Virus record (IMG/VR): IMGVR_UViG_3300032006_000029
Location: 1 to 39,112 of that record
Origin: a virus
Length of the DNA: 39,112 bases
Strand: one strand, 5' to 3'
The notes under the pieces were generated by a model that was not told where the DNA came from, ran no database searches, and saw only the letters and a program-made list of their open reading frames with translations. The stretch's first letter is position 1, and the number at the start of each line of letters is the position of its first letter. A program made the position numbers and the translations under genes. Shown one piece after another: positions 3,101 to 38,973 of the stretch.

Positions 3101-6100
3101 TTTGCCATGGCAACCCAGTTATCAGTATTTAAATCAAAGTTAATATTAACATCAGGACGAGTTGTAGTATCAGTCCAATAATCATTATCTGGATTTAGTT
3201 GAATATCACCAGCCCATGACCACATAAGACCAGCACAAGATCGAGAAGAACTTGCAAGTGGTTGATCAATAATTATATCATGGTTATATGGCAACATAAC
3301 TAAGTCGCCATCTTTTGGAGTTACAACTGAATCAATAACTCTAGATGTTCCAGAAGAAGCTCCAGCAATAGTAGCTGAAGCTAAGAAAGTACCTGAAACT
3401 TGTTCAATAAATAATTTATTGCCTATTTGATATCGAAGCTTACCACTTGCAGCACCAGCTGAAATTGATTCACCATTAGAATATGTTCCAGCTGTTGTTA
3501 ATGTAACGGTAGCATCTTTTGCAGCTCTAACAACTCCAGTAGAAGATGAATCATATTCAAGTTCTACACTATCAAGCCTAAATTTAGGCCGAGCTTCTTT
3601 TTCTGTTTTATCAATAGCAACTGAATAATCTGGGTTATATACGTTACCAATTCCATGACCATTAAATGGATCCACCAACATACCATTTTTAAATCGATCG
3701 TTGCCAGATCCATCTTGAATATTTAAATCTTTAGTTGCTTTTTCAAGAAGATTAAGAGATGAATAATATTCAAGGTTATCAACCCGATCTCTAATAGCGC
3801 CAATATCTTGCATGGTAAAGCGCTTATTTTTTTCGTTCTTAACACCAGAAGCCATTTCCGGCCTATTATACTTATTAGCTCCACCAGGTGTAAGGGATGG
3901 GTAAGGCCCAATATTAAGAATGGCCAAGGTCATTGAGTTTGCTGGTTCTTCTGGCCTAACTGGATGTAGTGCAGGGGTTCCGTCAACTCTAGCTAATACC
4001 CCATCAGTTTGCATAACAATCCGATCAATACGTTTTAGATAATATTGCAAATCAACTACAAAGTCTTCATTTGGCGGAGGAAAGTGTACACCACCAGATG
4101 GCTCAACAATAGTTGTACTTGTTGCTGGATTTGTTGTACCACTACTTACTGTTGTAGTATCTGTTGAAGTATCTGTAATTCTAGGTCTAAAATCAAGAGA
4201 ATCTCTAAGCTTATAGATTTTATTATCTATAGGTGAAGTATAAAATGGAATTTCTTGTGTTGTGATAGCATTTGTATTTGCTGAAGATCCATTAACATCA
4301 TCAATAGGATAACTATCAACTGAGAAATAACCAACACCTTGAGAAGTATCATGAGTGAAATAATCTAAGTCAATAAGCAAATAATCACTAGCCCCAAGAC
4401 TTAATGATGAACTTCTTTTCTTTTTAAGCTTTGCATGTTTATATAATGAATCAGTTTGGCCAGAATCAAGTTCAAAATGATCGGTAACATCAGTACCTTG
4501 AGTTGCCGTTGTAAATGTTGAACTATCAGTACGTACGCTGTTAATTTTCCAGACATCTGAGAAACCTAAATCCCAAGGACCATTTGTTGTATTCGTATGG
4601 GTAGCCAAATTAACTCGTACATATCTACCAGCTTTACGAACCTTAGCCATTTCTTGGCCGTCAACTTTATTAAGTTCAGTTAACAAGCTTGCAGAAACGG
4701 TTCCAGTAAATGTTTCCTGAGTATCAATTGTTGCTGATGTGGTAGTATTAATTGTTACTGATCGATTAGCAGCTTGACCACCAACCCCAGCAAGATCAAT
4801 TACTTGACCATTCTTAAATACTTTATTGAATGCAACCCCTGAAACTGTACCACCGCCAACAGTAAGAATACCTAAGTTTGTATTATCAGTTATGGAACTA
4901 ACAATACGCTCTCCAGCAGCTCCAAGATCAATAATATCACCAACATTAAGTTCAGTTGTAAATGCTGTACCAGATCCAGTAACTGTATTTGCCGCAGCAC
5001 AAGAAACGGTTCCTGTAAGAGCTGCGCCAGTTGCATCAGCATTTAAGCAAAGATAGAATGCACCTTGAACTTGACTATCGCTAAGTGCACCGGTTGAAAA
5101 TGGAAATACTTCTGACGCGTCAGAAGTTGTAACTGTAGTAGTACCATTTGTAGCAATAGTAACTGCAAATTTCTGATGAAACTTAAATAAAGTATCATAT
5201 TGGTTACTACCATCTCTAAGTGTTTTAATATTAGAAGCTGGAATATTATAAACTGCTTTGTTAAAATCAGTTTCATATAATTTTGCAGAACCACTAACAA
5301 GAATTGGATCTGCTTTTGCATCGGCAGTAGAAGTATTATTAATATAAAGAGATCTAACATCTCCAAATGGTGCGCCACTCATAGTTATATCATAAAGATA
5401 TATTTTATATTGGCCTGATGCAGCTCCCATAGTTCCAGTATAATGCTGTACACTACGTACGCGTGCGGTACCAATTTCTGCACCTACAGCAGAAGTAGTT
5501 GAATATTCAGAATTAGAAACAGCGTCTGCTGAAGCATTTCTAAGTGAAACTACTGGATGAGTATTAAAATCCCATTCTCCGACAACGTTATCAGCTATAA
5601 TATAATTACCATATTGTGCTGGAACTGTAAGACCTTCAACTTGTTCAACATCAATACCTTTTTTAACGTTTATTTTTTGTTGAGCTACTATGTCAATATC
5701 ATATCCACCAACATAAGCTTTACCAGCATCAACAGTAGCTATTAATAGTTCATTATTTCCTGATGGCTGATCATAAGTATTAGGATTACTGGTCGGGTAA
5801 AATCCGTTATTATCTCCGTTATCTAAATGCTCTCTTAACCTAACCATTAAACCTCTAACAGTATAATGACCAGATTCGTCGAACGTTCGTGTAGCCATAT
5901 AGTCACGAATAGCATTGTATGCTGTTCTTGGAGGTGCAGTTTGTAATACACCATCTTTAACCCGAGCTATTTCAATAAAGTCCGGATCATTATTAGCATA
6001 ACTAACTGATAATAAGTCTGCAGTAATTTTAAGACGATCGGCGCCAGGAGCAGTATAGTTATATGCACCTTGTGCTGGATCTAATAGAGTTGAATCAGCA

Positions 6101-6780
6101 CTAGATGTTACGATAGACTCATTAATCTGAAATCCAATTCTAGCAGAAGCCGTGTTTGCAGCATATTTTGATACGATGACAGCTTGTGTAGGTACACGTA
6201 CAAAGTGATCCCTAACATAAATTACACCTTCATTAACAGTATAATATCCAGCAAAGCCAGTTGGAGTTTCTGAAAGTTCAGCTACACATCCATTAGATGT
6301 TGCTGTTCCTACAATCTGTATTTTTTCGTTAGGTTCAAATGTTTGTGCGGCTGTATTTGTAGTAGAACCTTTAGTATATTTTATATAAAGTGTAGCAAGA
6401 TTCGGTGTTTGGGCTTCTGAACCAGTATTTGCAGCTATAACTTTAGCTTCAATCCCGTTAGTTAAACCTACAATCGTTTGATCAACATAACTACTTACAC
6501 CACCAATAGCACCATACCCATCTTTAAGTTTAATGTATCTCATATAAATGTCATATCGACCTTCAATTCCACGAACAACACTACCTTCTTTAAATAAATG
6601 TTCTCCTACCCGATCAATTTGATTTTGCAGAATTGTCTGCATTTGGGTAAGTTCTCGAGCCTGAACAGCCAGTCCAGGTCGATATAGAAACCTGTGAAAG
6701 TTTTTTGTTTCGTCAAAATCGTCGTAATACGGATCAACGTTTAGATTTGTTCTTAAAGATACATTATTAGCAATTGCCAT
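115..6780 (-). CDS. Giant DUF4815-type baseplate/tail-fibre protein with embedded Hint domain
   Basis: This 2221-residue protein begins with the DUF4815-like block (residues about 1-70, including PGLAVQARELTQMQ) typical of large baseplate or tail-fibre proteins of marine T4-like phages. Position after gp8 corresponds to the gp9/gp10 region of T4. The middle is rich in Thr, Ser, Ala and Gly with beta-type repeats, as in fibres. Residues 1484-1628 form a complete Hint domain, preceded by a Gly/Asp-rich linker (about 1465-1483) and followed by the conserved virion segment DPVAQSFILDQ. A Shine-Dalgarno AGAGGAAT precedes the ATG, and a late-promoter variant lies at 6820-6827. The exact T4 equivalent is uncertain; the structural role is well supported by context. 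Confidence 0.8.
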   Translation of the reverse strand: MAIANNVSLRTNLNVDPYYDDFDETKNFHRFLYRPGLAVQARELTQMQTILQNQIDRVGEHLFKEGSVVRGIEGRYDIYMRYIKLKDGYGAIGGVSSYVDQTIVGLTNGIEAKVIAANTGSEAQTPNLATLYIKYTKGSTTNTAAQTFEPNEKIQIVGTATSNGCVAELSETPTGFAGYYTVNEGVIYVRDHFVRVPTQAVIVSKYAANTASARIGFQINESIVTSSADSTLLDPAQGAYNYTAPGADRLKITADLLSVSYANNDPDFIEIARVKDGVLQTAPPRTAYNAIRDYMATRTFDESGHYTVRGLMVRLREHLDNGDNNGFYPTSNPNTYDQPSGNNELLIATVDAGKAYVGGYDIDIVAQQKINVKKGIDVEQVEGLTVPAQYGNYIIADNVVGEWDFNTHPVVSLRNASADAVSNSEYSTTSAVGAEIGTARVRSVQHYTGTMGAASGQYKIYLYDITMSGAPFGDVRSLYINNTSTADAKADPILVSGSAKLYETDFNKAVYNIPASNIKTLRDGSNQYDTLFKFHQKFAVTIATNGTTTVTTSDASEVFPFSTGALSDSQVQGAFYLCLNADATGAALTGTVSCAAANTVTGSGTAFTTELNVGDIIDLGAAGERIVSSITDNTNLGILTVGGGTVSGVAFNKVFKNGQVIDLAGVGGQAANRSVTINTTTSATIDTQETFTGTVSASLLTELNKVDGQEMAKVRKAGRYVRVNLATHTNTTNGPWDLGFSDVWKINSVRTDSSTFTTATQGTDVTDHFELDSGQTDSLYKHAKLKKKRSSSLSLGASDYLLIDLDYFTHDTSQGVGYFSVDSYPIDDVNGSSANTNAITTQEIPFYTSPIDNKIYKLRDSLDFRPRITDTSTDTTTVSSGTTNPATSTTIVEPSGGVHFPPPNEDFVVDLQYYLKRIDRIVMQTDGVLARVDGTPALHPVRPEEPANSMTLAILNIGPYPSLTPGGANKYNRPEMASGVKNEKNKRFTMQDIGAIRDRVDNLEYYSSLNLLEKATKDLNIQDGSGNDRFKNGMLVDPFNGHGIGNVYNPDYSVAIDKTEKEARPKFRLDSVELEYDSSSTGVVRAAKDATVTLTTAGTYSNGESISAGAASGKLRYQIGNKLFIEQVSGTFLASATIAGASSGTSRVIDSVVTPKDGDLVMLPYNHDIIIDQPLASSSRSCAGLMWSWAGDIQLNPDNDYWTDTTTRPDVNINFDLNTDNWVAMANSWETEWNDWQTTGVGVSEVGSRTVSMGTSSGGPGSAIIQQFGRETTMETSTRQTRQGVRTTVTPEQRVDRMGARTVDMSIIPFMRSRVVQFAGFGLKPNTRLFSFFDGEDVSAYITPSNAAFGNTGVQGSNVVTDSTGTVYGHFTIPNNDTLKFSTGNKKFRLTDSEINSRLQGKQVTSAEANYSASGLHQVQEETVLSTRYPAFNSSTVSETRTMVSRQSSVTPTGSTIIGWVPVPDPGPTSNDVGGDDGDGDSSCFVKGTLVRLADGSDKKIEEVEIGDVLIGMDGAENKVLEFDHPMLDGRDLVGINGSGPLMTPEHPLMTKDGWKAYNVDDTLKAYPHLHEIMEGNLAAGDKILDVDGNWIMIESMELYEGEEDQQVYNFILDGNNTYHANGFLAHNRDPVAQSFILDQMASEGLKRVDGIFCTKVDLYFQNKNADLGALIEIREMNEDGTNPTNIVLPFGHVNLTKDEIYISDDASVATPIVWPSPVYLKNTKEYCIVVTPHGFNPDLRIWVARIGEKDTLTDKPIIKNAFAGTLFASAADRKYTDIQEEDYKFKLYAANTSIERSTGDLVLTNANKEFLTIANQSGGTFNSIGEMVYGSTTLNLGSSPTVNTATEYANGVTSAAKGVLEYASGSTIRVKHQGPNANVFQSSETIRFYYTANNTYTGNFTTIASIVQPKGKIYHYDNVNASNTYMYLANTSGQFYAEQTLTLQGGSSANARARIVSIDNLRSDLHMLQVSTIEPPGTAVVASAKMATSSSTLDSTFRNTTVNENNSLDASRFILSRSNEIANLSSNRSINYKLVLSKLFNSSKANKRITPVVDLQRVAVTNVKNLVNNVNTNEANTAGGDSLSKYISRTVSLADGQDAEDMVVYLNAYKPATANIYVYYKIVNAEDADGIVDASWQIMEEDVSSGALISDGLDTGDFNEYKYKIPSAKMTGGGGEVQYTNSEGVTFTGYKHFAVKIVFNTSDSSNVPRVRDFRAIALQM
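1897..2331 (-). other. Hint (intein-like / BIL) domain within the structural gene
   Basis: The 145 codons start with Cys1484 (CFVKGTLVRLADG, splicing block A), contain the block B signature TPEHPLMT with the TxxH pattern, then block F (VYNFILDGNNTYHANG) and end with block G FLAHN at Asn1628. All residues needed for the N-S acyl shift (Cys1, Thr and His of block B) and for Asn cyclisation (penultimate His, terminal Asn) are visible. The length leaves no room for a homing endonuclease. The +1 residue is Arg, not Cys, Ser or Thr, so classic splicing is not expected; autocleavage or BIL-type chemistry is more likely. That outcome is inference from family knowledge. Confidence 0.85.
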
Positions 6781-25010: not shown

Positions 25011-26189
25011 TTATTCTTTCCAATTTACTAAATAATCCTTAGGCGAATAATTGTGTTTATTATCTTCTGTAATAATATCTCCTTCAGAAGTAATTGCAAT
25101 AGCTCTTGGTTTATATGATGAATCTGTTCTTGTAAGTCTTTGGGCTCTATCTAAACTTACATATTTCTGATGACCAAATGCATATTCAGCATCTTTAGTA
25201 AAATTATAGATCATGTTTCTCATGTCTTTTTTACAAGTCAAATAGAAATCTTCATCATCATGAGCATTTTCATTTTCCCATGGAGCTGTTGCAGTTAAAT
25301 CATTCCAAGCCCAGAATGGCCAAAGGGTTCCATCTTTTCTTTTATGATGTTCCCTAATCATCCACTTTTCTATCCATGGGTCTGTATAGAATGGTAAACA
25401 ATTAGACATATCTATCTTATCTCCAGGAAAGTCAGATATAAATCTAAACATTCTAAGAGCAAATCTAGATTCTCTTTGAATTTCTAAACGTTCAAAAAGC
25501 CATTCAGTATCTAATAATTTATCATGATCAGTAATATATAATGCGCCACCAGTATACTGATCTATTTCTCCACACCAACTCCAAATATGTTTATCAGCTT
25601 TAGCCATAGAATATAACGACATATCGTTATCTATTTCATAATCTATATTTCCTTTGATTACTTTATTAAAATAGTCTTCATATTCAGTGCCACCACCAAT
25701 TAATATTCTTAATTGTTTTGGACATACTTCTACTAAAGCACATAATGCTGCAGTGCTATCAATTCCACCTGACCAGAAGAAATCAATAGTTTTTCCATGA
25801 GAGGCTAATGATTCTGCGGCTTTAATGAATATTTCATCTGTCGTTAGATTTTGAACTTCCGGCCATTGTTTATATTCAATCCATGGCATATGCTCAGTGG
25901 ATGTCCTATAAGTATATTGTTTATCATGGCTCCTATGAGCCAATAAGCCAGCCCCTTGACCTGGAGCAGGCCAACCGGACCAACGTGATCCAGATGTTTT
26001 GAAGAATTCTTTTTCTTCTTCATTACCCTTTTTGAAGATCTTAATAATATCTTGAGCACCATACTTTTTAAGTTGTTTAGTTTCAAACATATCTCGAATT
26101 TGATCATCATCATATCCAAAATACTTAAAAGTTTCGTGTCTTATATGATTAGTCCACCATGGGGTTCTATGTACAATAGACTTTACCAA
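25011..26189 (-). CDS. PP-loop ATPase 1, asparagine-synthetase-like
   Basis: The 392-residue protein has the PP-loop SGGIDS at residues 140-145 within a FFWSGGIDSTAALCALVEV strand-helix, the signature of N-type ATP pyrophosphatases. A later CGEIDQYTGG aligns with the SGExxDExFGG motif of asparagine synthetase B-type synthetase domains. No N-terminal glutaminase domain is present. It shares LPFY...HHKRK-type and C-terminal features with the gene at 36540, so they are paralogues. The reaction (adenylation and amide or thio transfer) is inferred; the substrate is unknown. It starts at TTG overlapping the stop of the preceding gene, and is inserted between gp59 and gp32. Confidence 0.72.
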   Translation of the reverse strand: MVKSIVHRTPWWTNHIRHETFKYFGYDDDQIRDMFETKQLKKYGAQDIIKIFKKGNEEEKEFFKTSGSRWSGWPAPGQGAGLLAHRSHDKQYTYRTSTEHMPWIEYKQWPEVQNLTTDEIFIKAAESLASHGKTIDFFWSGGIDSTAALCALVEVCPKQLRILIGGGTEYEDYFNKVIKGNIDYEIDNDMSLYSMAKADKHIWSWCGEIDQYTGGALYITDHDKLLDTEWLFERLEIQRESRFALRMFRFISDFPGDKIDMSNCLPFYTDPWIEKWMIREHHKRKDGTLWPFWAWNDLTATAPWENENAHDDEDFYLTCKKDMRNMIYNFTKDAEYAFGHQKYVSLDRAQRLTRTDSSYKPRAIAITSEGDIITEDNKHNYSPKDYLVNWKE

Positions 26190-29736: not shown

Positions 29737-31503
29737 TTATCTATACTGCAAATCCACCAACGAATTATGACCTATATTAGAGTCATTGAATAGAAAACCG
29801 CCAAGAACATTATCTTGAATGACTCCACCTGGAATAGTCGTTGGTTTATAAAATTGAGCAGCATCTTTTAATACTATTCCTTGATTGAAAAAAGTTTTGG
29901 TATCTCCAAGAACTTGCATTACAACTAAAGTTTTTGCTTGGTTGACATTTGAGTATTTACCCTTGTCACCCATCTTCTTTAAAATCTTTTTAGCCGCCTT
30001 TTCCTGTTGTTTCTTCTTTGCAACTTTCTTTTGTTTCGGAGTTTGCTTTTTAACAACTTTCTTTGGTTTAACTGTAGCCTTCACCTTTGCTTTAGGTTTG
30101 GCTGCAACAGGTTTTGGTTCTGTCTTTTCTTCAGTTTTAGGTTTAGCTTCAGCTACTTTAGCTTCTTCCGGTTCTGATGAATCTTCACTAGCATTTTCTG
30201 CGCTAGGTTGCTCTCCGCTTCCTGCTTCAGTCTCTGAAACTGGGCCTTCCTGAGAGCTTGATCCACCAGCCGTTTCTTGTGATTCCGGAGCAGGCGTTTC
30301 CATATCCACCGATTCGGATCCTGCATTTGAGATCTCCGTTTCTATCTCTACCTCAACAGTAGCTTCTGCAGAAGCCACTTCAGGAGTCGGTGTTGGTGTC
30401 TGAACCTCAATAGTAGGAGGTGCAATTTCAGCAGTTGGTATTTCTAAATTCATTTCTGCCTCGACTGACTCAAAACTAACTTGAGCTGTTGGAGGCTCTT
30501 GTACATGTGGTGTTATTTCAATTTCTCCCGTTGGGCCAGGTCCAACATCATTGTTTTCGAAAATGTCGTTAACGACGTCTATTGTTTCTTGGTCTGTAAT
30601 TCCTAATGCTACAAATTGTTCTACCGTAGTTATAGTCTCAGTTACGATAGTATTCACAACATTATATAATACATTAATAGTAACATCATCGAATAAAGGT
30701 CCAATGGCTAAGTTTATATCTCTACCACCAACTTCAACTACTAAAGTTGTTAGGCCACCGGCAAAATCAAATCCACCAGAATGAGTTGTAAGTCCAGCTC
30801 CTATAGCTCCAGTTTCTGATAATACATCTGTTCCAGAAAATTTGACTGTAGTACCGTCCGTACCTTTCATATGCATATAAATTCTGTCTTGAGCATCTTG
30901 TTTGTCTACTTTAATTGTATATGTAGCCCTGCCACCTCTAGAGCCAACTCCCAGATCTGATATATCAATTGTTTGTATAAACGTAGTGCCCATGCCCGGA
31001 ACACCAGATGCACTAGTATTATTTCCTGATCCAGTTATCATAGCACATTTATCTACCCCTAGACCTTTACAATTACTTCCCGTTGGCAATGAAGCTGGTC
31101 CTTGACCACCCCAGTCAGATGACATGTCTCCACCAAACCTTTGATTCCTACCCATGGCTTTAACCTTATCATCGGTCAATAGATCACCAGTATCTTCATT
31201 GGTTACTGTTGTTGTAGTCGTAGTTGTTGTAGTGGTAGTTGTGGTGGTTGTACCAGTTCCATCAGTCTCTGTAGTTTCAACTATTGATTCATCAGTCTCT
31301 ACAGTGACACCTGGCTGACATAATCCAGAAACAGTTGATGGGCAGGGTGGCGATTGAGGTGGAGATTCAGCTCTAGAAGAATAAGGGAACACCAAAGAAA
31401 GCGCCAGCAATACCAACAAGAATCCCAACGCCATTGATCCAACCGAAGCTAGATGGCGGGCTTTCTGTATCTTCTTCTGCGTAATCGTCTTCGATATCAT
31501 CAT
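29737..31503 (-). CDS. Large exported low-complexity protein
   Basis: The 588-residue protein has an N-terminal signal or anchor (about 20-45; SMALGFLLVLLALSLVF), a run of 15 Thr (codons at 31207-31251), a beta-rich globular part (about 125-285), an acidic Pro/Glu/Thr/Ser region (about 330-450) and a very basic Lys/Ala/Pro region (about 455-520). The C-terminal 65 residues again look folded. The layout suggests a cell-envelope or virion-surface protein spanning the periplasm. It begins 3 bases after the stop of the upstream signal-peptide protein. I do not recognise a family. Confidence 0.7.
   Translation of the reverse strand: MMISKTITQKKIQKARHLASVGSMALGFLLVLLALSLVFPYSSRAESPPQSPPCPSTVSGLCQPGVTVETDESIVETTETDGTGTTTTTTTTTTTTTTTVTNEDTGDLLTDDKVKAMGRNQRFGGDMSSDWGGQGPASLPTGSNCKGLGVDKCAMITGSGNNTSASGVPGMGTTFIQTIDISDLGVGSRGGRATYTIKVDKQDAQDRIYMHMKGTDGTTVKFSGTDVLSETGAIGAGLTTHSGGFDFAGGLTTLVVEVGGRDINLAIGPLFDDVTINVLYNVVNTIVTETITTVEQFVALGITDQETIDVVNDIFENNDVGPGPTGEIEITPHVQEPPTAQVSFESVEAEMNLEIPTAEIAPPTIEVQTPTPTPEVASAEATVEVEIETEISNAGSESVDMETPAPESQETAGGSSSQEGPVSETEAGSGEQPSAENASEDSSEPEEAKVAEAKPKTEEKTEPKPVAAKPKAKVKATVKPKKVVKKQTPKQKKVAKKKQQEKAAKKILKKMGDKGKYSNVNQAKTLVVMQVLGDTKTFFNQGIVLKDAAQFYKPTTIPGGVIQDNVLGGFLFNDSNIGHNSLVDLQYR
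31207..31251 (-). repeat. Poly-threonine codon repeat
   Basis: Fifteen consecutive Thr codons (mixed ACA, ACC, ACT, ACG) within the large exported protein. The mixed codon use indicates selection for threonine rather than simple DNA slippage. It could be a flexible linker. Confidence 0.9.
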
Positions 31504-31506
31504 AAC

Positions 31507-32022
31507 TTAATCCGTCTGATCCGGATCCGTTATCGATGTCTCGCTCTCCTCCTCCATCGAGTTCGAATTCGTCAACTTTTTTTTTAGAGTTTTTTGCCCA
31601 GAAGGAGCATCATTGAGATTATCTTCCCAAGCTTCTAGAGCATCTTTTCCGATTTTACCTTTGTATGGACAAGGTGTTCCTGCCATAACCATGGCATCAA
31701 ATACTCTAGGATCTTGGCATAGAGTACTAACAGCTGCAACCTTCATTCCCATACCATATAGGGAACGGGCAAGCTTAATTCTTTCACAGTTTTCATCTGT
31801 GATAGTAATGCCTGAGGCAAAACCTAAAATTTGTGTTTGAATAGCCGCACTTGCTGCTGATTTACATACGTCCGAATTGTTTATAACCACTCCAGGTGCA
31901 CTAGCTGTCGGCGGGGCTTTATCCGTCACGACAGTAGAAGAAACCGTATTTGTGTCAGCTGCAAATATCTTAGTAGGACTTAGAAGTACGGCCATCGCCA
32001 ATAACGCAATGACTATCCTCAT
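31507..32022 (-). CDS. Small exported (periplasmic) protein
   Basis: The 171-residue protein starting MRIVIALLAMAVLLSPTKIF has a clear signal peptide ending near FAA-D. The mature part contains four Cys (about residues 50-125) that could form disulphides, then a charged, Ser/Glu-rich tail. The start at 32022 is selected because GGAG lies 9 bases upstream and the signal peptide begins there; the Met at 32037 has no better site. It heads an operon with two late promoters upstream. No family is recognised. Confidence 0.7.
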   Translation of the reverse strand: MRIVIALLAMAVLLSPTKIFAADTNTVSSTVVTDKAPPTASAPGVVINNSDVCKSAASAAIQTQILGFASGITITDENCERIKLARSLYGMGMKVAAVSTLCQDPRVFDAMVMAGTPCPYKGKIGKDALEAWEDNLNDAPSGQKTLKKKLTNSNSMEEESETSITDPDQTD

Positions 32023-32087
32023 ATGTGCATTCTCCATTGAGAGAGCTTCTAAATCATAATATTGTCTTCTCTTATATCACTCTTAAC

Positions 32088-32095
32088 TATTTATA
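32088..32095 (-). promoter_or_regulatory. T4-type late promoter TATAAATA (proximal)
   Basis: Exact minus-strand octamer 66 bases upstream of the 32022 ATG. It pairs with a second exact copy 32 bases further upstream at 32120-32127. Confidence 0.8.
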
Positions 32096-32119
32096 AGAGT
32101 CAAAGGCCTTGATTGCAAT

Positions 32120-32127
32120 TATTTATA
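32120..32127 (-). promoter_or_regulatory. T4-type late promoter TATAAATA (distal)
   Basis: Second exact octamer, placed right after the terminator of the DUF932 gene. The tandem pair could give strong late expression of the exported-protein operon. Confidence 0.75.
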
Positions 32128-32131
32128 AAGA

Positions 32132-32155
32132 AAAGGGCCGCCGAAGCGACCCTTT
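32132..32155 (-). terminator. Rho-independent terminator after the DUF932 gene
   Basis: On the minus strand GGGTCGC-TTCG-GCGGCCC forms a 7-bp stem with one U-G pair and a stable UUCG tetraloop, extended by A-U pairs, followed by TTTTCTTT. It separates the early-type DUF932 gene from the late operon downstream. Confidence 0.9.
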
Positions 32156-32185
32156 CCAATCTACTGAAACTTCCTGCCGGGGGCT

Positions 32186-33151
32186 TTAGGCAGCTTCAGC
32201 AAATTCTACTGCAGTTTCAAGAGCTTTAATCTTGTTCTTGCGGTTAGCACCGAACCAAGCCGAAGTCATCCGTGTATCAGCCGAACGACCCATAACGTGG
32301 TCAGTCATGTATGTAACCGTATTAAAAGCCTGCCAGAATGTTCCCTTAGCAAACTCACTACCAGGCTGCTCTTCAATAACCTCTAGGGCAGTCTGGTGGT
32401 TCCGAGAGAACAGATCTTCCGGAGCTTCTACATCTTCGATCGTCTTCTTTGTGGAGGACGGGAAGATCGTACCGAAGTACCCATCGAGGGAATCCTTAGT
32501 GAACCGCTTGGAACCCAAGAATTCAGCAACCTCTTTGTAGGTATCCAGCTTCTCTTTCGAAACACCCAACATCTCTTTAACATGATCACCATCGAACTCT
32601 TGACGGTGATTAACCCGAACTGCACCAGTAGCCGTAGAGGTATGCAGCGCATAAGAGAGAGTGTTATTGCATACAACTCGGATTGGAGTTGATTGAACAC
32701 CGATCGACTTACCGAATTTGTGAGGATTGGTGAAGAGCAGATACTCGTCGACTTCATCGCCACCGAAGAGATCGAAACCGTTCTTGGTCTTGGCTAACGC
32801 CCAAACCATACGACCGTTTTCAAGAGATCCAGCAGTGTGCATCTCCATATCACCGGCAGTGATAAAATCATTGAAGAAAGCGAAAGCTTCAGAGTTCTGA
32901 AGAGGATTCCATTCTGAGGAAACCATATCCAGGAAGGAACCGTCGCTCGTACGAACGAGTGCCTTTTTATTAGAAGCGCGTTTCCGCTCTCCATTGTTAC
33001 CCTCGTAGGTAACATCCCGCTTCTCAACGTTCCAGTCGAGTTCAGCAGCTTCGAGCATTTGCTCCGGTGTTAGATCAGGAATGACCTTTTTACCGAGACC
33101 GTGCCAGGGAACTTCCCCTGCGTATGCCATTGTTTCTACTTGATGTGCCAT
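32186..33151 (-). CDS. DUF932 phage/plasmid-like protein
   Basis: The 321-residue protein starting MAHQVETMAYAGEVPWHGLG shows the DUF932 (phage/plasmid-like, TIGR03299-type) pattern, including PWHGLGKKV, FTNPHKFGKSIGVQSTPIRV with VCNNTL, and a Trp/Phe-rich C-terminus. The biochemical role of this family is unknown. The start at 33151 has SD AAAGGAG and lies about 30 bases downstream of a sigma70-type promoter. Base composition is GC-richer than the tail genes. It ends at a strong terminator. Confidence 0.85.
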   Translation of the reverse strand: MAHQVETMAYAGEVPWHGLGKKVIPDLTPEQMLEAAELDWNVEKRDVTYEGNNGERKRASNKKALVRTSDGSFLDMVSSEWNPLQNSEAFAFFNDFITAGDMEMHTAGSLENGRMVWALAKTKNGFDLFGGDEVDEYLLFTNPHKFGKSIGVQSTPIRVVCNNTLSYALHTSTATGAVRVNHRQEFDGDHVKEMLGVSKEKLDTYKEVAEFLGSKRFTKDSLDGYFGTIFPSSTKKTIEDVEAPEDLFSRNHQTALEVIEEQPGSEFAKGTFWQAFNTVTYMTDHVMGRSADTRMTSAWFGANRKNKIKALETAVEFAEAA

Positions 33152-33186
33152 GATGTTGCTCCTTTTCAAAATTTCATCATATATAC

Positions 33187-33215
33187 ATTCTACCATACTT
33201 TTGATAAAATGTAAA
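33187..33215 (-). promoter_or_regulatory. Sigma70-type early promoter P1 (DUF932 gene)
   Basis: TTTACA (33210-33215), 17-base spacer and TAGAAT (33187-33192) on the minus strand. The spacer ends TATGG as in P3 and P4, and the upstream block 33207-33229 is nearly identical in those copies. Confidence 0.85.
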
Positions 33216-33220
33216 GGATT

Positions 33221-33241
33221 AATTTCACTTTATGTGAAATT
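33221..33241. repeat. Dyad element upstream of P1
   Basis: AATTTCAC (33221-33228) and GTGAAATT (33234-33241) form an inverted repeat just upstream of the P1 -35 box. Related dyads lie at 33550-33566 (P3) and 33827-33847 (P4). Possible operator; it also covers the stop of the 52-residue gene. Confidence 0.7.
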
Positions 33242-33398
33242 ATTTTCGCTCCCTGCAGATGACGTTAACATCTGCATCGATCGCATCTAAGAGATTGGGA
33301 TAAAGATCTTCGATCTTTTCTAGTACCGCAGTCCGCTCTTCAGCAGTCATACGAGCAAAGCGCTCGGCGGTGTCGGCTATAAGCCAAGATTGTTCCAT
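33240..33398 (-). CDS. 52-residue small protein
   Basis: A 52-codon frame starting MEQSWLIADTAERFARMTAE has GGAG 8 bases before the ATG and its own sigma70-type promoter P2 at 33429-33457. The product is acidic and helical (ERTAVLEKIEDLYPNLLDAI). Small early phage proteins like this often bind host proteins, but nothing specific is visible. Confidence 0.75.
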   Translation of the reverse strand: MEQSWLIADTAERFARMTAEERTAVLEKIEDLYPNLLDAIDADVNVICRERK

Positions 33399-33428
33399 TT
33401 GCAGCTCCGTTATCATCATTATATATCT

Positions 33429-33457
33429 ATTCTACCATATATCTATATATTTGTAAA
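33429..33457 (-). promoter_or_regulatory. Sigma70-type early promoter P2 (52-residue gene)
   Basis: TTTACA (33452-33457), 17-base spacer ending TATGG, TAGAAT (33429-33434) on the minus strand. The upstream block is only partly like P1, P3 and P4. Confidence 0.8.
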
Positions 33458-33480
33458 CGTTTTTTTGCACTAAAATATCC

Positions 33481-33528
33481 AATGATTTCAATGGCTTGTG
33501 ATTTTTTTTATAAGCCATTGATTTCATT
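33481..33528. repeat. Long inverted repeat between divergent early promoters
   Basis: Arms 33481-33497 and 33512-33528 match over 17 bases with two mismatches (core AATGGCTT / AAGCCATT) around a T-rich 14-base loop. It lies midway between the divergent promoters P2 and P3. It could be a two-way transcription barrier, a protein site or a replication element. Confidence 0.8.
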
Positions 33529-33549
33529 AATCTTTTTAAGTGAATTTTT

Positions 33550-33566
33550 TTTCACTCGGAGTGAAA
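33550..33566. repeat. Tight palindrome upstream of P3
   Basis: TTTCACTC-G-GAGTGAAA: 8-base arms around a single base, too tight for a hairpin and so more like a dimeric protein site. It directly precedes the P3 -35 region. Confidence 0.75.
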
Positions 33567-33573
33567 TTAATCG

Positions 33574-33602
33574 TTTACATTTTAGGAGATATATGGTAGA
33601 AT
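33574..33602 (+). promoter_or_regulatory. Sigma70-type early promoter P3
   Basis: TTTACA (33574-33579), 17-base spacer ending TATGG, TAGAAT (33597-33602). It drives the small gene at 33633. The leader has GATGAACAAAAGGAA, nearly repeated after P4. Confidence 0.85.
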
Positions 33603-33632
33603 AGATATACGATGAACAAAAGGAACATCAAA

Positions 33633-33824
33633 ATGGCCTACCAATTTACCCTCTACCCCAACCCAGAGTTCAACTTCAACCTACTCCCTCAGTTCTCTTC
33701 GGAGCACGGGGTTTCATATCATATCAACAAGGGTAATACTATAACCTTCTCTTCTAACAATCTTGACACCCTCGACGAGGTTTCAGACCAACTCTCATTC
33801 CTCACTCAAACTCCCATCTCATAA
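33633..33824 (+). CDS. 63-residue small hypothetical protein
   Basis: The product starts MAYQFTLYPNPEFNFNLLPQ and is rich in Asn, Phe, Ser and Thr. The ATG at 33633 has SD AAAGGAA 8 bases upstream; an upstream in-frame ATG at 33612 falls in the conserved leader and is less likely. It is expressed alone from P3, since P4 restarts transcription after it. No family recognised. Confidence 0.7.
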   Translation: MAYQFTLYPNPEFNFNLLPQFSSEHGVSYHINKGNTITFSSNNLDTLDEVSDQLSFLTQTPIS

Positions 33825-33826
33825 TT

Positions 33827-33847
33827 AATTTCAAAAAAAGTGAAATT
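33827..33847. repeat. Dyad element upstream of P4
   Basis: AATTTCA (33827-33833) and TGAAATT (33841-33847) form an inverted repeat with an A-rich centre, just upstream of the P4 -35 box. Confidence 0.65.
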
Positions 33848-33852
33848 AATCG

Positions 33853-33881
33853 TTTACATTTGCTTGTTTTTATGGTAGAAT
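33853..33881 (+). promoter_or_regulatory. Sigma70-type early promoter P4
   Basis: TTTACA (33853-33858), 17-base spacer ending TATGG, TAGAAT (33876-33881). It would drive the 55-residue gene, nucleotidase, 63-residue basic protein and, by read-through, the tmRNA. Confidence 0.85.
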
Positions 33882-33911
33882 GTATATATGATGAACAAAA
33901 GGAAAATCGAA

Positions 33912-34079
33912 ATGAGTGGTTCTTTTAAGCCAGCGACACACGTTCTGTATCGGACAGACTTCGCAGATGAGCGTTTCTGGAATTATATTCTAGAGGCTCA
34001 CGGTATTGAGACGTCAGAGGAAGACGGAATTCAGTACGATGAGCTCACTATCCGGGCTAAAGTGGAGACCGTAGAATGA
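33912..34079 (+). CDS. 55-residue small hypothetical protein
   Basis: The product starts MSGSFKPATHVLYRTDFADE and is acidic. The start at 33912 follows an AAAGGAA ribosome site; the earlier ATGs lie in the conserved promoter leader. It overlaps the nucleotidase gene by ATGA, so it is the first gene of a coupled set. Function unknown. Confidence 0.68.
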   Translation: MSGSFKPATHVLYRTDFADERFWNYILEAHGIETSEEDGIQYDELTIRAKVETVE

Positions 34080-34597
34080 AGGTCTACGTAGACATGGATG
34101 GAGTGATCGCAGACTTCTTTACGGAGCTCGCTGATCACTACGGAGTTACCCATTGGAAGAATCTCCCTGATAAAGATGCCTCTGTCAAGGCTCTAAAAGG
34201 GACTGACTTCTTTGGAAGACTCCCTAAGTTTGATACGTCAGATGAACTGATTGATTATGTCGATCATCTGACTGCTGGAGATTGGTCCATTCTTTCTAGT
34301 CCTCTCAGAGATGACCACGATAACAGTGGCTTCTGGAAGAGGCATTGGTTAGAAAAGAACGACTATCATCCTCAAGAAGCCATCTTTGCTGGATACAAGG
34401 CAAAGTATGCTGTCAACAAGGATGGAAGTCCAAACATTCTGATCGATGACAGACCCAAGAACATTGATGCTTGGGTTGCTAAGGGTGGAATTGGAATTCG
34501 CTATCAGGCTCTAGAGTCTTCCCTTGATGATCTCAAGGATGCTCTTTCTGAAGCGTATCTTGGAATTAACACAACTGACTTGGAGGTCGTTATATGA
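34076..34597 (+). CDS. HAD-family 5'(3')-deoxyribonucleotidase-like phosphatase
   Basis: The 173-residue protein begins MKVYVDMDGVIADFFTEL, the HAD motif I DxDGV with nucleophile Asp6 and acid Asp8; motif II lies in WSILSSP, a Lys in GYKAKYAV and motif IV in ILIDDRPKNI. This set matches phage and bacterial NT5C-type deoxyribonucleotidases, which remove phosphate from dNMPs. Such enzymes can adjust nucleotide pools during infection. It is coupled on both sides by ATGA overlaps. Confidence 0.85.
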   Translation: MKVYVDMDGVIADFFTELADHYGVTHWKNLPDKDASVKALKGTDFFGRLPKFDTSDELIDYVDHLTAGDWSILSSPLRDDHDNSGFWKRHWLEKNDYHPQEAIFAGYKAKYAVNKDGSPNILIDDRPKNIDAWVAKGGIGIRYQALESSLDDLKDALSEAYLGINTTDLEVVI

Positions 34598-34785
34598 GTG
34601 CACGTAAACATAGTCCAGAGCAAATCGCTGCTTGGGCCAAGGATTGGGGTATCCCAGGATATGACCATCTTGATCCAGTAAAGCGAGAAGCCCATCGCCA
34701 AGAGGCGATTAAGCGAGCCAATAATCCAAATTATCGGCCGCCTAGGTCTAAATTCCGAAAGCAAAATCGCCGGAGGAATAAATAG
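34594..34785 (+). CDS. Small basic hypothetical protein
   Basis: The 63-residue product (MSARKHSPEQIAAWAKDWGI...) is strongly basic at the C-terminus (RPPRSKFRKQNRRRNK). Nucleic acid binding is possible. The stop at 34783-34785 directly abuts the acceptor piece of the tmRNA, so both are probably on one transcript. No family recognised. Confidence 0.7.
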   Translation: MSARKHSPEQIAAWAKDWGIPGYDHLDPVKREAHRQEAIKRANNPNYRPPRSKFRKQNRRRNK

Positions 34786-34850
34786 ATTGTTACGTTGAAG
34801 AGGAGCGAACGCTAAACAGGACTCGGGGGCAGTACCCGACGCCTCCACCA

Positions 34851-34984
34851 CAAGCAGATCAGTAAATATCTGGGCGTGAGTTAGATGCGGGGAAGTTAGC
34901 TACGGACCCAACACTTCTAACCTCGAAGAAATACAGTTGACTTTTGGTGTGCACACCGCGGTCTGGAACTGGTCTGTTTTTGAT
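34851..34984 (+). other. Transcribed spacer of the permuted tmRNA
   Basis: The 134 bases between the acceptor CCA end and the coding piece start would be removed in processing. No tRNA or open frame is recognised in it. Confidence 0.75.
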
Positions 34985-35124
34985 GGGGGCGATATAGGAT
35001 CGACTGGTAGTCAATAGCGAATTAGAGTAACACGGTTGACCGCGTAATAGGTCAAACACTACAAATGCAAACGATAACTTTGCACATGATGATTTCGCCC
35101 TCGCGGCTTAATTAATCGGGGTCC

Positions 35125-35161
35125 GGAGGTACCTGGCAACAGAAACCTCCAACTTTTTTTT
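35125..35161 (+). terminator. Rho-independent terminator at the tmRNA 3' end
   Basis: GGAGGT and ACCTCC form a 6-bp stem followed by a run of eight T. It ends the early transcript right after the tmRNA coding piece. Confidence 0.8.
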
Positions 35162-35173
35162 GAGGAGCTGGAA

Positions 35174-35350
35174 ATGTATCGAGTCAAAGTCTTCTTGGAA
35201 GAGGACTATCATGATTGGGTATGGTTGGTTGACCCATTAACCGGTAGAGTAGAAGAGTATAAAGACAAAAAAGACGCCGATAAGGCGTCTAAAATGTTTC
35301 GTTCTGCTGTACCTGTTAGTGCTACTACGGACCTGCAACCCACAGTATAA
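35174..35350 (+). CDS. 58-residue small hypothetical protein
   Basis: A frame starting MYRVKVFLEEDYHDWVWLVD follows the tmRNA terminator, with GGAG about 8 bases before the ATG. The product is charged with a Trp-rich start. Expression would need read-through or an unseen promoter. Its 3' end overlaps an antisense membrane-protein frame by 26 bases. Confidence 0.6.
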   Translation: MYRVKVFLEEDYHDWVWLVDPLTGRVEEYKDKKDADKASKMFRSAVPVSATTDLQPTV

Positions 35351-35417
35351 ATGCTACACATAGTGCTAGGAAAACGAGTGAGGCTATAAGTTTAGCCCAT
35401 TCACTAGCTGGCGGCAC
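35325..35417 (-). CDS. 30-residue single-span membrane protein (GTG start)
   Basis: A GTG at 35417 overlaps the stop of the 368-residue gene (TAGTG) and has AAGGAG just upstream. The product, MPPASEWAKLIASLVFLALC followed by VAFILWVAGP, is almost entirely one membrane helix. Tiny single-span phage proteins can act in lysis or superinfection exclusion; no evidence selects one. Confidence 0.6.
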   Translation of the reverse strand: MPPASEWAKLIASLVFLALCVAFILWVAGP

Positions 35418-36523
35418 TATAGTATCTCCTTGTTGATAAATTGGCTGTAGTCAACACTATCAGTACTCCTAATAATATCCCCATCACTACAAATAGCAAT
35501 CACTGTACTTTCTTGAGTAGGATTAACTACGTTTCCTTCAACAGTTACATCCGTTCCAGGACGAATAGTAAATGTATTGTCTGAAGCATAATTATCACAC
35601 CATGTATTTGCAGAAGTCTGATGAGTCGTATTTGACTCTCCGTAGTGGACGCATTTTTTCATACCACCTCGAACATCGTTATCTGGCATATCTGCTCCAG
35701 ATGAACTAAGTCCAATAATTCTTTTTTCTACTTCACTTCCATAAAAATCATACCAACGACTGTTGACAATATCTCCAGTAGCTATTTTGCTAGTCATGCA
35801 GAATTGCGTATAATTTTGACCAAAACGGATCTTCCTATAATAAGTATTCCAAGGTGATTGATCTGAATTATGGTATCCATGACCAAACACAACTACATCA
35901 TCTGTAGATATATTATCAGAGCTAGCTCCATTATCATTTAATTTTGTATAAGAAGCAGCTCCACTTCTGCGTTTCGAAGGAGCACCATAATGCATTGGTA
36001 CAATCTTAACATTAAACTTCTTTGAAGCTTTTAGTATACTTGAGATTGTACCTTCATCTCCAGTAGCATTATTATTTGCTAATCGACCATGAGTCCAGAC
36101 TGTAAGATTTGAAAGCGAGTTATTAGAAGCTGGATGATTCATCGCATATTTAATAGCTCCAAGAGCAGCCATTTGAGGAAGATTCGGTCTTGATAGAAGG
36201 AAATGAACCTTTCTACCTTGATTAACTACTTCATATGCACGACTCAACATTGTATTAGCAAAAGGAATTGACCTATTAGCATATGTAGTTTCGGCTTCAC
36301 GATCAGCGACTAGTAATTGGTTTGGTGTAGTATGTACTATATTATTTGCGGTATGCAATCTGTCAATAGCACAAGTGATATTATATGTATTTGCAATTGC
36401 GTCATGTTCAGCCAACTTGGTATTAAACGAAGCCAATTGACTATCAGTCAAAACTGAACTAGCTGCCTCAGCCACTTTAGTCATAAAAGCTGGTGTGTAG
36501 AAAACGACTGAATTAGTTGCCAT
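35417..36523 (-). CDS. Unrecognised 368-residue protein of the PP-loop cluster
   Basis: The protein (MATNSVVFYTPAFMTKVAEA...) alternates predicted strands and helices in its first 200 residues (VHFLLSRPNLPQMAALGAIK, VKIVPMHYGAP, DDVVVFGHGYHN), suggesting an alpha/beta fold. The last 40 residues (VIAICSDGDIIRSTDSVDYS) resemble the tail of PP-loop protein 1 (AIAITSEGDIITEDNKHNYS). SD AAGGAG precedes the ATG, and an exact late promoter lies at 36545-36552. It could be a partner or substrate of the PP-loop enzymes; this is a guess from context. Confidence 0.7.
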   Translation of the reverse strand: MATNSVVFYTPAFMTKVAEAASSVLTDSQLASFNTKLAEHDAIANTYNITCAIDRLHTANNIVHTTPNQLLVADREAETTYANRSIPFANTMLSRAYEVVNQGRKVHFLLSRPNLPQMAALGAIKYAMNHPASNNSLSNLTVWTHGRLANNNATGDEGTISSILKASKKFNVKIVPMHYGAPSKRRSGAASYTKLNDNGASSDNISTDDVVVFGHGYHNSDQSPWNTYYRKIRFGQNYTQFCMTSKIATGDIVNSRWYDFYGSEVEKRIIGLSSSGADMPDNDVRGGMKKCVHYGESNTTHQTSANTWCDNYASDNTFTIRPGTDVTVEGNVVNPTQESTVIAICSDGDIIRSTDSVDYSQFINKEIL

Positions 36524-36539: not shown

Positions 36540-37736
36540 CTATCTATTTATAACAAAATCAACGAAGGGAGTCCACGATTTTAAGTACTGATCGTTGATA
36601 TTTTGTTGTGTCTCTAAATAACCCATATTAACTAAAGGTCTCCAATTGCCTCTTGAATTAATAACCGACATATGCCCGGCATTTACTCGAGTAGGCCTCG
36701 ATAGACTAGCAGTTTTAACTTTGTTATCTCTATAATCTTCATCTCCAGCCATATTATAAATGTAATCCTTAGCTGGCTGTTTATAGGTTAACCAATTACC
36801 ACCTTCTCTTACTTTCTTATTATGGTGACTGATTGACCACTGATGCAGTTCCGGAGCATTATAGAATGGATACCATTTATCTATAGGAAATGGGTTAGCA
36901 ACATTAGCTTTAGCTATAGCCCTATAAACACAAAGATTCCATTTCAAACTATAATTTAACCACCAATATAAATCAAATATTGTTTTAACTTCAAAAGGAC
37001 AATATTCAATTTGTTCTTCTAAATAGCTAATGAATACTTTCTTAATTCTAGATCCTGGATTTTGAAATATTAAATTCCTATGTGGACCCATTATACTATG
37101 AACTGCTGACTTCGGATTAGCAATTAATTCATCCCAAGACATAACATCTTTATATGACTTAACCATTGACTCTGGATCGTTTGCTAAAACCATAGAACCA
37201 AATATTTGATCTCCACATTCTCCAGATGTTACCAATGAATCTTCAAGAGATTGTGGTATCTGTTCAGCAAATAATTCTTGTTCAGTAACCTGCCTATTAT
37301 CTTCAATATGCTTAACAAACTTTTCATAGAACTCTGGATATTCTAAAACACTTGTATCTGTATAGATAACTCGTATTCTCTTTTTCCAATCGTCACATAC
37401 AGATATTAAAGCAGCTAAAGCACATGTAGAATCAATTCCCCCTGACCAAAGAACTGTTATAATATCATTTTCTTTTAATAAGCGATCCGCAATAATTTCG
37501 ACTACATCATCATATTCAGGAGTATTATCTTTATATTCCGGAACTGGAAGAAAGTCAAATCCAAAATTTTTGAATTGATTATCTCGTACTCTATTAACTG
37601 GATTTAAACATACGATAAATGCACCAATGCAAAGTTGAGCTAAGAAAATATCAAGCTCATCTTCTTCACAATGATATAACATATTATCTGTGGTAGTCAT
37701 ATGCTTCATTGAATAGAATTGAATATCTCTATCCAT
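36540..37736 (-). CDS. PP-loop ATPase 2, asparagine-synthetase-like
   Basis: The 398-residue protein has the PP-loop SGGIDS at about 98-103 in TVLWSGGIDSTCALAALISV, and SGECGDQIFGS, matching the SGExxDExFGG motif of asparagine synthetase synthetase domains. Later LxxYPFYNAPELHQW and HHNKK echo PP-loop protein 1. There is no glutaminase domain; the N-terminal 90 residues are unrecognised. The start at 37736 is chosen because it forms a TGATG overlap with the DUF59 gene. It would activate a carboxyl or carbonyl group with ATP; substrate unknown. Confidence 0.75.
   Translation of the reverse strand: MDRDIQFYSMKHMTTTDNMLYHCEEDELDIFLAQLCIGAFIVCLNPVNRVRDNQFKNFGFDFLPVPEYKDNTPEYDDVVEIIADRLLKENDIITVLWSGGIDSTCALAALISVCDDWKKRIRVIYTDTSVLEYPEFYEKFVKHIEDNRQVTEQELFAEQIPQSLEDSLVTSGECGDQIFGSMVLANDPESMVKSYKDVMSWDELIANPKSAVHSIMGPHRNLIFQNPGSRIKKVFISYLEEQIEYCPFEVKTIFDLYWWLNYSLKWNLCVYRAIAKANVANPFPIDKWYPFYNAPELHQWSISHHNKKVREGGNWLTYKQPAKDYIYNMAGDEDYRDNKVKTASLSRPTRVNAGHMSVINSRGNWRPLVNMGYLETQQNINDQYLKSWTPFVDFVINR
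36545..36552 (-). promoter_or_regulatory. T4-type late promoter TATAAATA within the PP-loop 2 gene end
   Basis: The exact minus-strand octamer lies inside the last codons of the PP-loop 2 gene, 22 bases before the ATG of the 368-residue gene. It would allow that gene to be expressed apart from the enzymes upstream. Confidence 0.75.
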
Positions 37737-38047
37737 CACCATCCCAACATAAGTCTGGTTTCTTCCGGAACCATGTCCATAGTAAAAGGGGGATCAAAAG
37801 TAGTTACTATTTGTACACTATGGACATTTTCTACATACCCTGCATGTCTTATATTATATACAATCTCATCTGCAAAAGGACAAAACGCGCTAGTCAATGT
37901 GTGAGTAATAGTAACCTCTTGTTCTCTTGCATTGATAGTAATATCATAGATTAAACCAAGATCGTATAGACTTGCAGAAGGTATCTCTGGGTCATATACA
38001 TTCTTTAGATTTTCTATAATTAATTGCTTATCAATCAGATCTTCCAT
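37736..38047 (-). CDS. DUF59/MIP18-family (SufT/PaaD-like) protein
   Basis: The 103-residue protein starting MEDLIDKQLIIENLKNVYDP shows the DUF59 pattern: DPEIPSASLYDLGLIYDI, VTITHTLTSAFCPFADEI with the conserved Cys, and a final FDPPFTMDMVPEETRLMLG. Family members act in iron-sulphur cluster assembly or as partners of oxygenases. The start at 38047 forms a TGATG overlap with the VOC gene stop. Its place between PP-loop and VOC genes suggests a maturation factor for a cluster enzyme; that is inference. Confidence 0.88.
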   Translation of the reverse strand: MEDLIDKQLIIENLKNVYDPEIPSASLYDLGLIYDITINAREQEVTITHTLTSAFCPFADEIVYNIRHAGYVENVHSVQIVTTFDPPFTMDMVPEETRLMLGW

Positions 38048-38973
38048 CACCACTCCAATTCAGTCTCCATACAATCATTCCACGTATTAAGGAATTTATA
38101 AAGAGCACCTACAGAAGCTATTTCAGCAATTTGATAATCTGTAAAATATTCTCTCATATCAGCCATAGTCTTATAACCTTTTATAAAATCAACAGCCGCA
38201 TTATATCCTTCACTAGAACAAGCAAGATTCTTACCTTCTAATTCATCCCACATCTTTTTGGTATGGGCAGAACAATATGGAGAATAAATTGATACTTCTT
38301 GAGCTAATTTATATTTAAGAGCTCTTGTTATAGAGTCTTTAGTTTCAGCCATAACGGCAGCCATAAGAGATTTATATGCATCAAGAAGTTCTGGTTTTAT
38401 ATTAAGAGTTTTATGAGAGTTCGGAACAAATCCAAGGATTTCAGATTTCTCTAAGAAAGCTTTTTGCTTATCTCTATTTTTATTATCTTGATCACGCCAA
38501 TTTCTTGTATCTGAATTTAGGTCATCTTCGAATCTATACATATAACCATTAGGCGGATTAACTAGGATTTCCCAGTAGTTCGAGTCCTGATCTACAATAT
38601 AGATGAAGTAGGTACCATGCCCATGCGTTGGTTGCGTGATTTTTCTGATGCCATAATTTTCCGTAAGTGGTCGTATGGAGTCATACGCATTCATTACGTC
38701 CTCTTCATTCAGAACATCTATTCCAAAATGATGATGGCACTTATCTGCAATGATAGAACTCGGCGGTTCGTCATATACTTCTATCGCGCTAAAGCAAAAG
38801 TTACCACCCATTTTAAAAGATGCAGAATTATGAGACGTTTGAACATGCTCAAATCCAAACAATTCAGTAAGAAATCGAATCGTATACTGTAAATCAGAAC
38901 ATGGAATAGTTCCATGAGATAAAAATTGTAACCCGTTAATTTTAGACTCCAACTTGCATATCTCCATTTTCAT
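38047..38973 (-). CDS. VOC (glyoxalase-like) domain fused to AhpD-like helical domain
   Basis: Residues about 10-145 form a VOC fold: GLQFLSHGTIPCSDLQYTIR, HHHFGIDV, and FIYIVDQDSNYWEIL with the final Glu as a likely metal ligand. Residues about 180-308 are helical and resemble the AhpD/carboxymuconolactone decarboxylase type (MAAVMAETKDSITRALKYKL, then SIYSPYCSAHT), but with only one Cys of the CxxC pair. The start is uncertain: 38973 or 38967 is chosen before the VOC domain, since the longer frame overlaps the upstream gene extensively. Function unknown; a metal-dependent small-molecule or radical reaction is plausible. Confidence 0.65.
   Translation of the reverse strand: MKMEICKLESKINGLQFLSHGTIPCSDLQYTIRFLTELFGFEHVQTSHNSASFKMGGNFCFSAIEVYDEPPSSIIADKCHHHFGIDVLNEEDVMNAYDSIRPLTENYGIRKITQPTHGHGTYFIYIVDQDSNYWEILVNPPNGYMYRFEDDLNSDTRNWRDQDNKNRDKQKAFLEKSEILGFVPNSHKTLNIKPELLDAYKSLMAAVMAETKDSITRALKYKLAQEVSIYSPYCSAHTKKMWDELEGKNLACSSEGYNAAVDFIKGYKTMADMREYFTDYQIAEIASVGALYKFLNTWNDCMETELEW

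Follow-up and report, generated by a model that had tools for sequence, protein, structure and literature searches.

The stretch of DNA analysed here (the window) is a viral record of 39,112 bases, a 39-kb fragment, and was found to contain a permuted two-piece tmRNA on the plus strand, with the acceptor piece placed first, followed by an intervening sequence and then by the coding piece. The whole window was scanned with Rfam cmscan at the gathering threshold. RF01849 (alpha_tmRNA), the model that an earlier note on this DNA had proposed to run, matched at 34745-35154 (+) with 125.7 bits and an E value of 4.4e-34 against a cut-off of 50 bits, and RF04321 (tmRNA_permuted) matched at 34788-35111 with 109 bits against a cut-off of 47 bits. 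The tmRNA was not reported by ARAGORN when run on the window. The nearest distinct phage copy (L094), which carries the same tag and is 80.6% identical over about 400 bp, was reported by this program, and the copies at two other loci (L092 and L106) were also missed.

The acceptor piece (34787-34850, +), delimited by direct reading and Rfam, was found to contain the 5′ strand of the pairing between the pieces, a T arm with the stem TCGGG/CCCGA (34823-34827/34835-34839) and the loop GGCAGTA, and the acceptor 3′ strand CGCCUCC followed by an encoded CCA (CGCCTCC-A-CCA by direct reading, 34840-34850). The intervening sequence of 134 nt (34851-34984, +), predicted to be removed, contained two ends that pair with each other (AGCAGAUCAG / CUGGUCUGUU); its length was unremarkable beside a viral median of 85.5 nt among the matches listed. 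Its fold was not clearly better than that of shuffled sequences (z -1.2), and, apart from the pairing of the ends, a structured or functional intervening sequence was dropped as a candidate. The coding, mRNA-like piece (34985-35154, +; direct reading and Rfam) began with GGGGGCG (34985-34991), which forms 7/7 pairs with CGCCTCC, G3-U70 included. A pseudoknot of nine pairs (35032-35055, +) was found before the resume codon, with S1 at 35032-35034/35043-35045 (ACG/CGT) and S2 at 35036-35041/35050-35055 (TTGACC/GGTCAA), as supported by covariation among 20 viral sequences. The resume codon GCA at 35067 was followed by the directly read tag frame ANDNFAHDDFALAA (35067-35111, +), which ends in a hydrophobic residue and two alanines before the stop codon TAA (35109-35111). 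The conserved 3′ element GGAGGUACCUGGCAACAGAAACCUCC (GGAGGTACCTGGCAACAGAAACCTCC in the direct reading), followed by eight T nucleotides (35125-35161, +), matched the 3′ end of alpha_tmRNA and was up to 97% identical to bacterial tmRNA 3′ ends; with the T run it looks like an intrinsic terminator, whose 14-nt loop falls outside the limit of the scan. The mature ends of both pieces are those predicted from this reading. The coordinates given in the earlier note were good, and the CCA-ended acceptor piece, T arm, G3-U70 pair, pseudoknot and intact LAA-ended tag that it had claimed were all present. The locus apparently holds a complete and working permuted two-piece tmRNA of the alphaproteobacterial type.

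The claim that this RNA is phage-encoded was upheld by the presence of T4-like genes on the same contig, namely those for a gp6-like baseplate wedge, a tail tube, gp32 and gp59. The closest cultured relatives by the baseplate wedge were Melnitz (39%) and HTVC008M/Mosig (36%), and the source is most probably a marine myovirus of the T4-like kind, with Melnitz and the pelagimyophages among its relatives. Upstream in the same run of genes were found a 5′-3′ deoxyribonucleotidase-like gene (phrog_2643; 34076-34597, +) and a 63-aa ORF (34594-34785, +); as the acceptor piece follows almost at once on the end of this ORF, the tmRNA and the ORF probably share a transcript. The T run was immediately followed by a 58-aa ORF (35174-35350, +) for which no family was found. 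The nearest promoter-like site upstream of this run (33853-33881, +) was part of the arrangement GTGAAATTAATCG-TTTACA-17-TAGAAT (33840-33881, +), with TG before the second hexamer. Four copies of TTTACA, 17 nt and TAGAAT preceded by TGG were present (33187-33215 and 33429-33457 on the minus strand, 33574-33602 and 33853-33881 on the plus strand) against 0.25 expected; GTGAAATTAATCG or a close variant stood before three of the four, and the two plus-strand sites shared the leader ATGAACAAAAGGAA. The four sites look like repeats of a phage early promoter cassette, and the promoters are putatively of an early type. The G+C content was 42-45% at 30000-36000 against 31-40% in the rest of the window, which places the tmRNA in a block of distinct composition. 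A glutamine riboswitch beside the tmRNA, of the kind present in Melnitz, was ruled out, no Rfam match being found down to an E value of 5 within 34500-35500.

Several other genes of the window were recorded. A DUF4815 structural protein of 2221 aa (115-6780, -) contained a Hint/intein-like insert from about residue 1484 (CFVKGT...YHANGFLAHN). A gene of the DAHP/KDO-8-phosphate synthase family (PF00793; 27527-28348, -) was present in this T4-like phage and is possibly a host-surface sugar gene. Two proteins (25011-26189 and 36540-37742, -) contained an SGGIDST ATP-pyrophosphatase-like motif, one of them with a weak match to PAPS reductase, and an FeS assembly gene (PF01883, SufT/MIP18-like; 37736-38053, -) adjoined a glyoxalase-fold gene.

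The description of Melnitz in 2022 had already reported two-piece tmRNAs in marine phages: 53 two-piece cases were counted among the tmRNAs of 18,146 phage genomes, marine or aquatic samples being the source of 50, and a link to the SAR11-type ssrA was drawn (PMC9004378). Methylophilales phage Melnitz (MZ577097) is likewise a T4-like marine myovirus with a permuted tmRNA and short ORFs directly before it, and its tmRNA shares with that of the window an intervening sequence (142 nt in Melnitz), the G3-U70 pair, the GGCAGUA T loop and a tag of 14 residues, which in Melnitz is ANDNYVPVDYALAA. The two differ in the glutamine riboswitch RF01739 that follows the tmRNA in Melnitz only, and in their gene neighbours, and their coding pieces were only 75% identical over 138 bases. 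The Pelagibacter phages Mosig and HTVC008M, T4-like phages of SAR11, likewise contained permuted tmRNAs, which were shorter, divergent and lower-scoring than that of the window (90.6-93.6 bits), with the tags GEDNFALAA in Mosig (intervening sequence 44 nt) and ANFNEYALAA in HTVC008M. The first residue of the Mosig tag, as called, was glycine and not alanine. SsrA is annotated in Mosig, whereas the permuted tmRNAs of HTVC008M (L168, 1121-1462) and of Rhodobacter phage RcSimone-Hastad (L124, 1323-1736; tag ANDNVRMDAQALAA) were unannotated and that of RcRudolph (L125, 1322-1736; tag ANDNVRMDAQALAA) lay in a region annotated as a hypothetical protein. The two-piece tmRNA of alphaproteobacterial hosts (RF01849) shares the gene order, the GGCRGUA type of T loop, the G3-U70 pair and the 3′ element, but the best-scoring host copies reached 123-167 bits with RF04321 against 76-114 bits for the phage copies scored, and the median intervening sequence was 31 nt in hosts against 85.5 nt in phages. 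The gene type is therefore already known, and the copy in the window is one with its own sequence, no glutamine riboswitch and other neighbours. Added here are the tree, the tag comparison, the covariation, the silent changes and the tmRNAs of HTVC008M, RcSimone-Hastad and RcRudolph, which lack such an annotation.

At least 120 stretches were found by an exact-pattern scan of viral contigs for the resume motif, and further permuted tmRNAs were present on at least about 90 viral contigs. Among the matches listed, the acceptor and coding pieces formed 7/7 pairs in 86 of the 94 viral loci that contained exactly one T-arm/CCA acceptor upstream, the acceptor being located by its T arm alone, against 38 of the 94 on average, and 47 at most, when partners were swapped; in the remaining eight the script seems to have placed the 5′ end one base off. 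In the pseudoknot, 83.8% of cells were paired against at most 44.7% when the strands were slid, two-sided changes were found in 14 cells against 4.0 in shuffles, and covariation was 0.296 against 0.132 in shuffles, all among 20 viral sequences picked for a recognisable motif. One of its pairs occurred as CG, GC and AU across this set. The support for the pseudoknot is an alignment-based count; the single-sequence de novo search and the ungapped column test were without power. Four codons of the tag differed between the window and L094, all within the last four residues and all four silent, and a crude pN/pS of 0.38 was obtained for the tag over 74 viral pairs. Since the stems pair across these contigs and the tag survives silent changes, the tmRNA is not a product of chance, and, since the changes in the L094 tag are all silent and the stem pairing covaries across phages, the RNA, with both fold and tag kept, is by these comparisons under selection as a tmRNA.

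Among the matches listed, 52 of the 57 distinct viral tags ended in LAA, against 22 of the 48 bacterial tags sampled, with a Fisher p of 4e-7 that overstates the contrast because the rows are related. The commonest tag length was 14 in viruses and 12 in bacteria, and bacterial tags often ended in VAA, IAA or MAA. The viral permuted tmRNAs of L013 and L014 contained a tag of 30 residues, ANDNASNVYSFVDFGSLKNTYVNEDFALAA. That of L167 (tag ANDNFAPVALAA) contained only about 27 nt from TCGAC to the resume codon and apparently lacks the usual pseudoknot.

A contig near-identical to the window was found (99.99% over 8.5 kb), which together with L094 supplied the closest copies, and the window gave no match to phages by megablast. 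A permuted tmRNA above the cut-off was present in 349 of 385 alphaproteobacterial genomes. Within the 385, the coding piece was matched at best with 76% identity over 96 bases, the other matches being short and confined to the conserved 3′ element. Over genome contigs a first sequence pattern matched nothing; with a looser pattern 19 loci were found, almost all of them alphaproteobacterial according to their titles. In a tree of 92 viral tmRNAs, mostly found through the exact resume motif, and 81 alphaproteobacterial ones, partly the highest-scoring or those nearest to the window, the two groups fell on opposite sides of one branch, with ultrafast bootstrap/SH-aLRT support of 100/100 and presence in 100% of 200 bootstrap trees. 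The bacterial set included small, low-GC, rhodopsin-bearing alphaproteobacterial genomes, standing in for SAR11. The same split was recovered from the tRNA-like domain alone (support 99), and from the pseudoknot region alone it needs two changes. The phage copies were not nested among bacterial tmRNAs, the pattern examined for recent host capture, and such a capture from the sampled hosts is not supported, because the fully supported branch has every one of the 92 phage copies on the same side. Of the earlier note's view on origin, the alphaproteobacterial type of the RNA stood, and the statement that it was probably taken from such a host was not upheld in that form. Given this branch, and the identity of 80.6% to L094 beside 76% over 96 bases to the best bacterial match, the tmRNA has probably long been exchanged between phages, and if it was once captured from an alphaproteobacterium, this was probably an old event. 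The phage copies likely form a lineage separate from the bacterial ones, a reading that is without conflict with the view of the Melnitz ssrA as alphaproteobacterial in type (PMC9004378). In a broader reading, towards which we lean, marine phages carry their two-piece tmRNAs as an old viral lineage that is handed on between phages and kept by selection, with LAA retained more steadily than in hosts, and not as the result of repeated ssrA captures.

The transcript of a two-piece tmRNA is cut by tRNA-processing enzymes, charged with alanine and delivered with SmpB, and the tmRNA releases stalled ribosomes and marks incomplete proteins for degradation. A search for smpB in the window and in Melnitz, Mosig, HTVC008M, RcSimone-Hastad and RcRudolph gave none, and the phage tmRNA therefore probably uses the SmpB of the host. 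By analogy with known tmRNA biology, a single transcript, probably early, would be made from a sigma-70-type promoter and cut by host tRNA-processing enzymes with the loss of the 134-nt intervening piece, leaving two RNAs joined through base pairs, the acceptor RNA (about 64 nt) and the coding RNA (about 165-170 nt). This RNA would be charged with alanine through G3-U70, bound by host SmpB and brought into ribosomes stuck on broken mRNA, where a tag ending in ALAA would be added; the ribosome would be released at the tag stop codon, and the peptide would go to host ClpXP-type proteases. Its most likely use would be to secure ribosomes for the phage during the destruction of host mRNA and DNA, at a stage when the host ssrA may no longer be made; such a ribosome-recycling role is plausible. 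Caulobacter provides a precedent for the two-piece form, according to passages in PMC9004378 and PMC11915505. No direct test of the function of a phage-borne two-piece tmRNA was found in the literature searched. Taken as a whole, the explanation that this is a functional permuted tmRNA, processed into two pieces and used with host SmpB for ribosome rescue during infection, is considered highly probable.

The same RNA could instead serve the phage mainly through its tag, by marking host or stalled proteins for proteolysis and so supplying amino acids. The conserved tag, the LAA ending of 52 of the 57 viral tags listed, more frequent than in the bacterial tags sampled, and the silent-only change between the window and L094 would fit this use, but simple rescue, where release goes together with tagging, would also conserve the tag. 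The tmRNA, to our knowledge, has no means of choosing host proteins, which also counts against the tag as the main use, and we consider this use unlikely, although amino-acid supply through tagging was proposed for Melnitz (PMC9004378). A role in counter-defence, with ribosomes rescued from mRNA that was cleaved by host toxins or anti-phage RNases in abortive infection, would agree with the early-type promoter and the complete, selected RNA; nothing here separates it from general rescue and no link to a defence system was seen, and it is rated as similarly doubtful.

Recent capture of a host ssrA, or an integration remnant with no phage role, was also weighed, since ssrA is a common integration site and the RNA has the alphaproteobacterial type; both pieces and the tag are complete, the tag and stems are under selection, the phage copies group in the tree apart from the bacterial ones, and the phage is T4-like with no integrase noticed among the proteins searched, so that this reading appears largely refuted by the comparisons and extremely improbable. 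Mycobacteriophage DS6A also bears a tmRNA-like RNA, described in a passage of PMC11915505 as tag-less and as inhibiting the host tmRNA, and on this precedent the RNA of the window might be a decoy that blocks host trans-translation; it differs from that of DS6A in keeping a selected tag frame and resume region, which makes a decoy very unlikely.

If the two-piece tmRNAs of marine phages are such an old viral lineage, a phage would bring its own ribosome-rescue RNA, which would compete with or replace that of the host. As regards annotation, several copies were overlooked by ARAGORN, and three sequenced phages have a tmRNA that is not labelled as one. The cultured members Melnitz, Mosig, HTVC008M, RcSimone-Hastad and RcRudolph make phage ribosome rescue testable. 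If the lineage is widespread, selected and nearly fixed for LAA, many marine phages would supply their own ribosome rescue.
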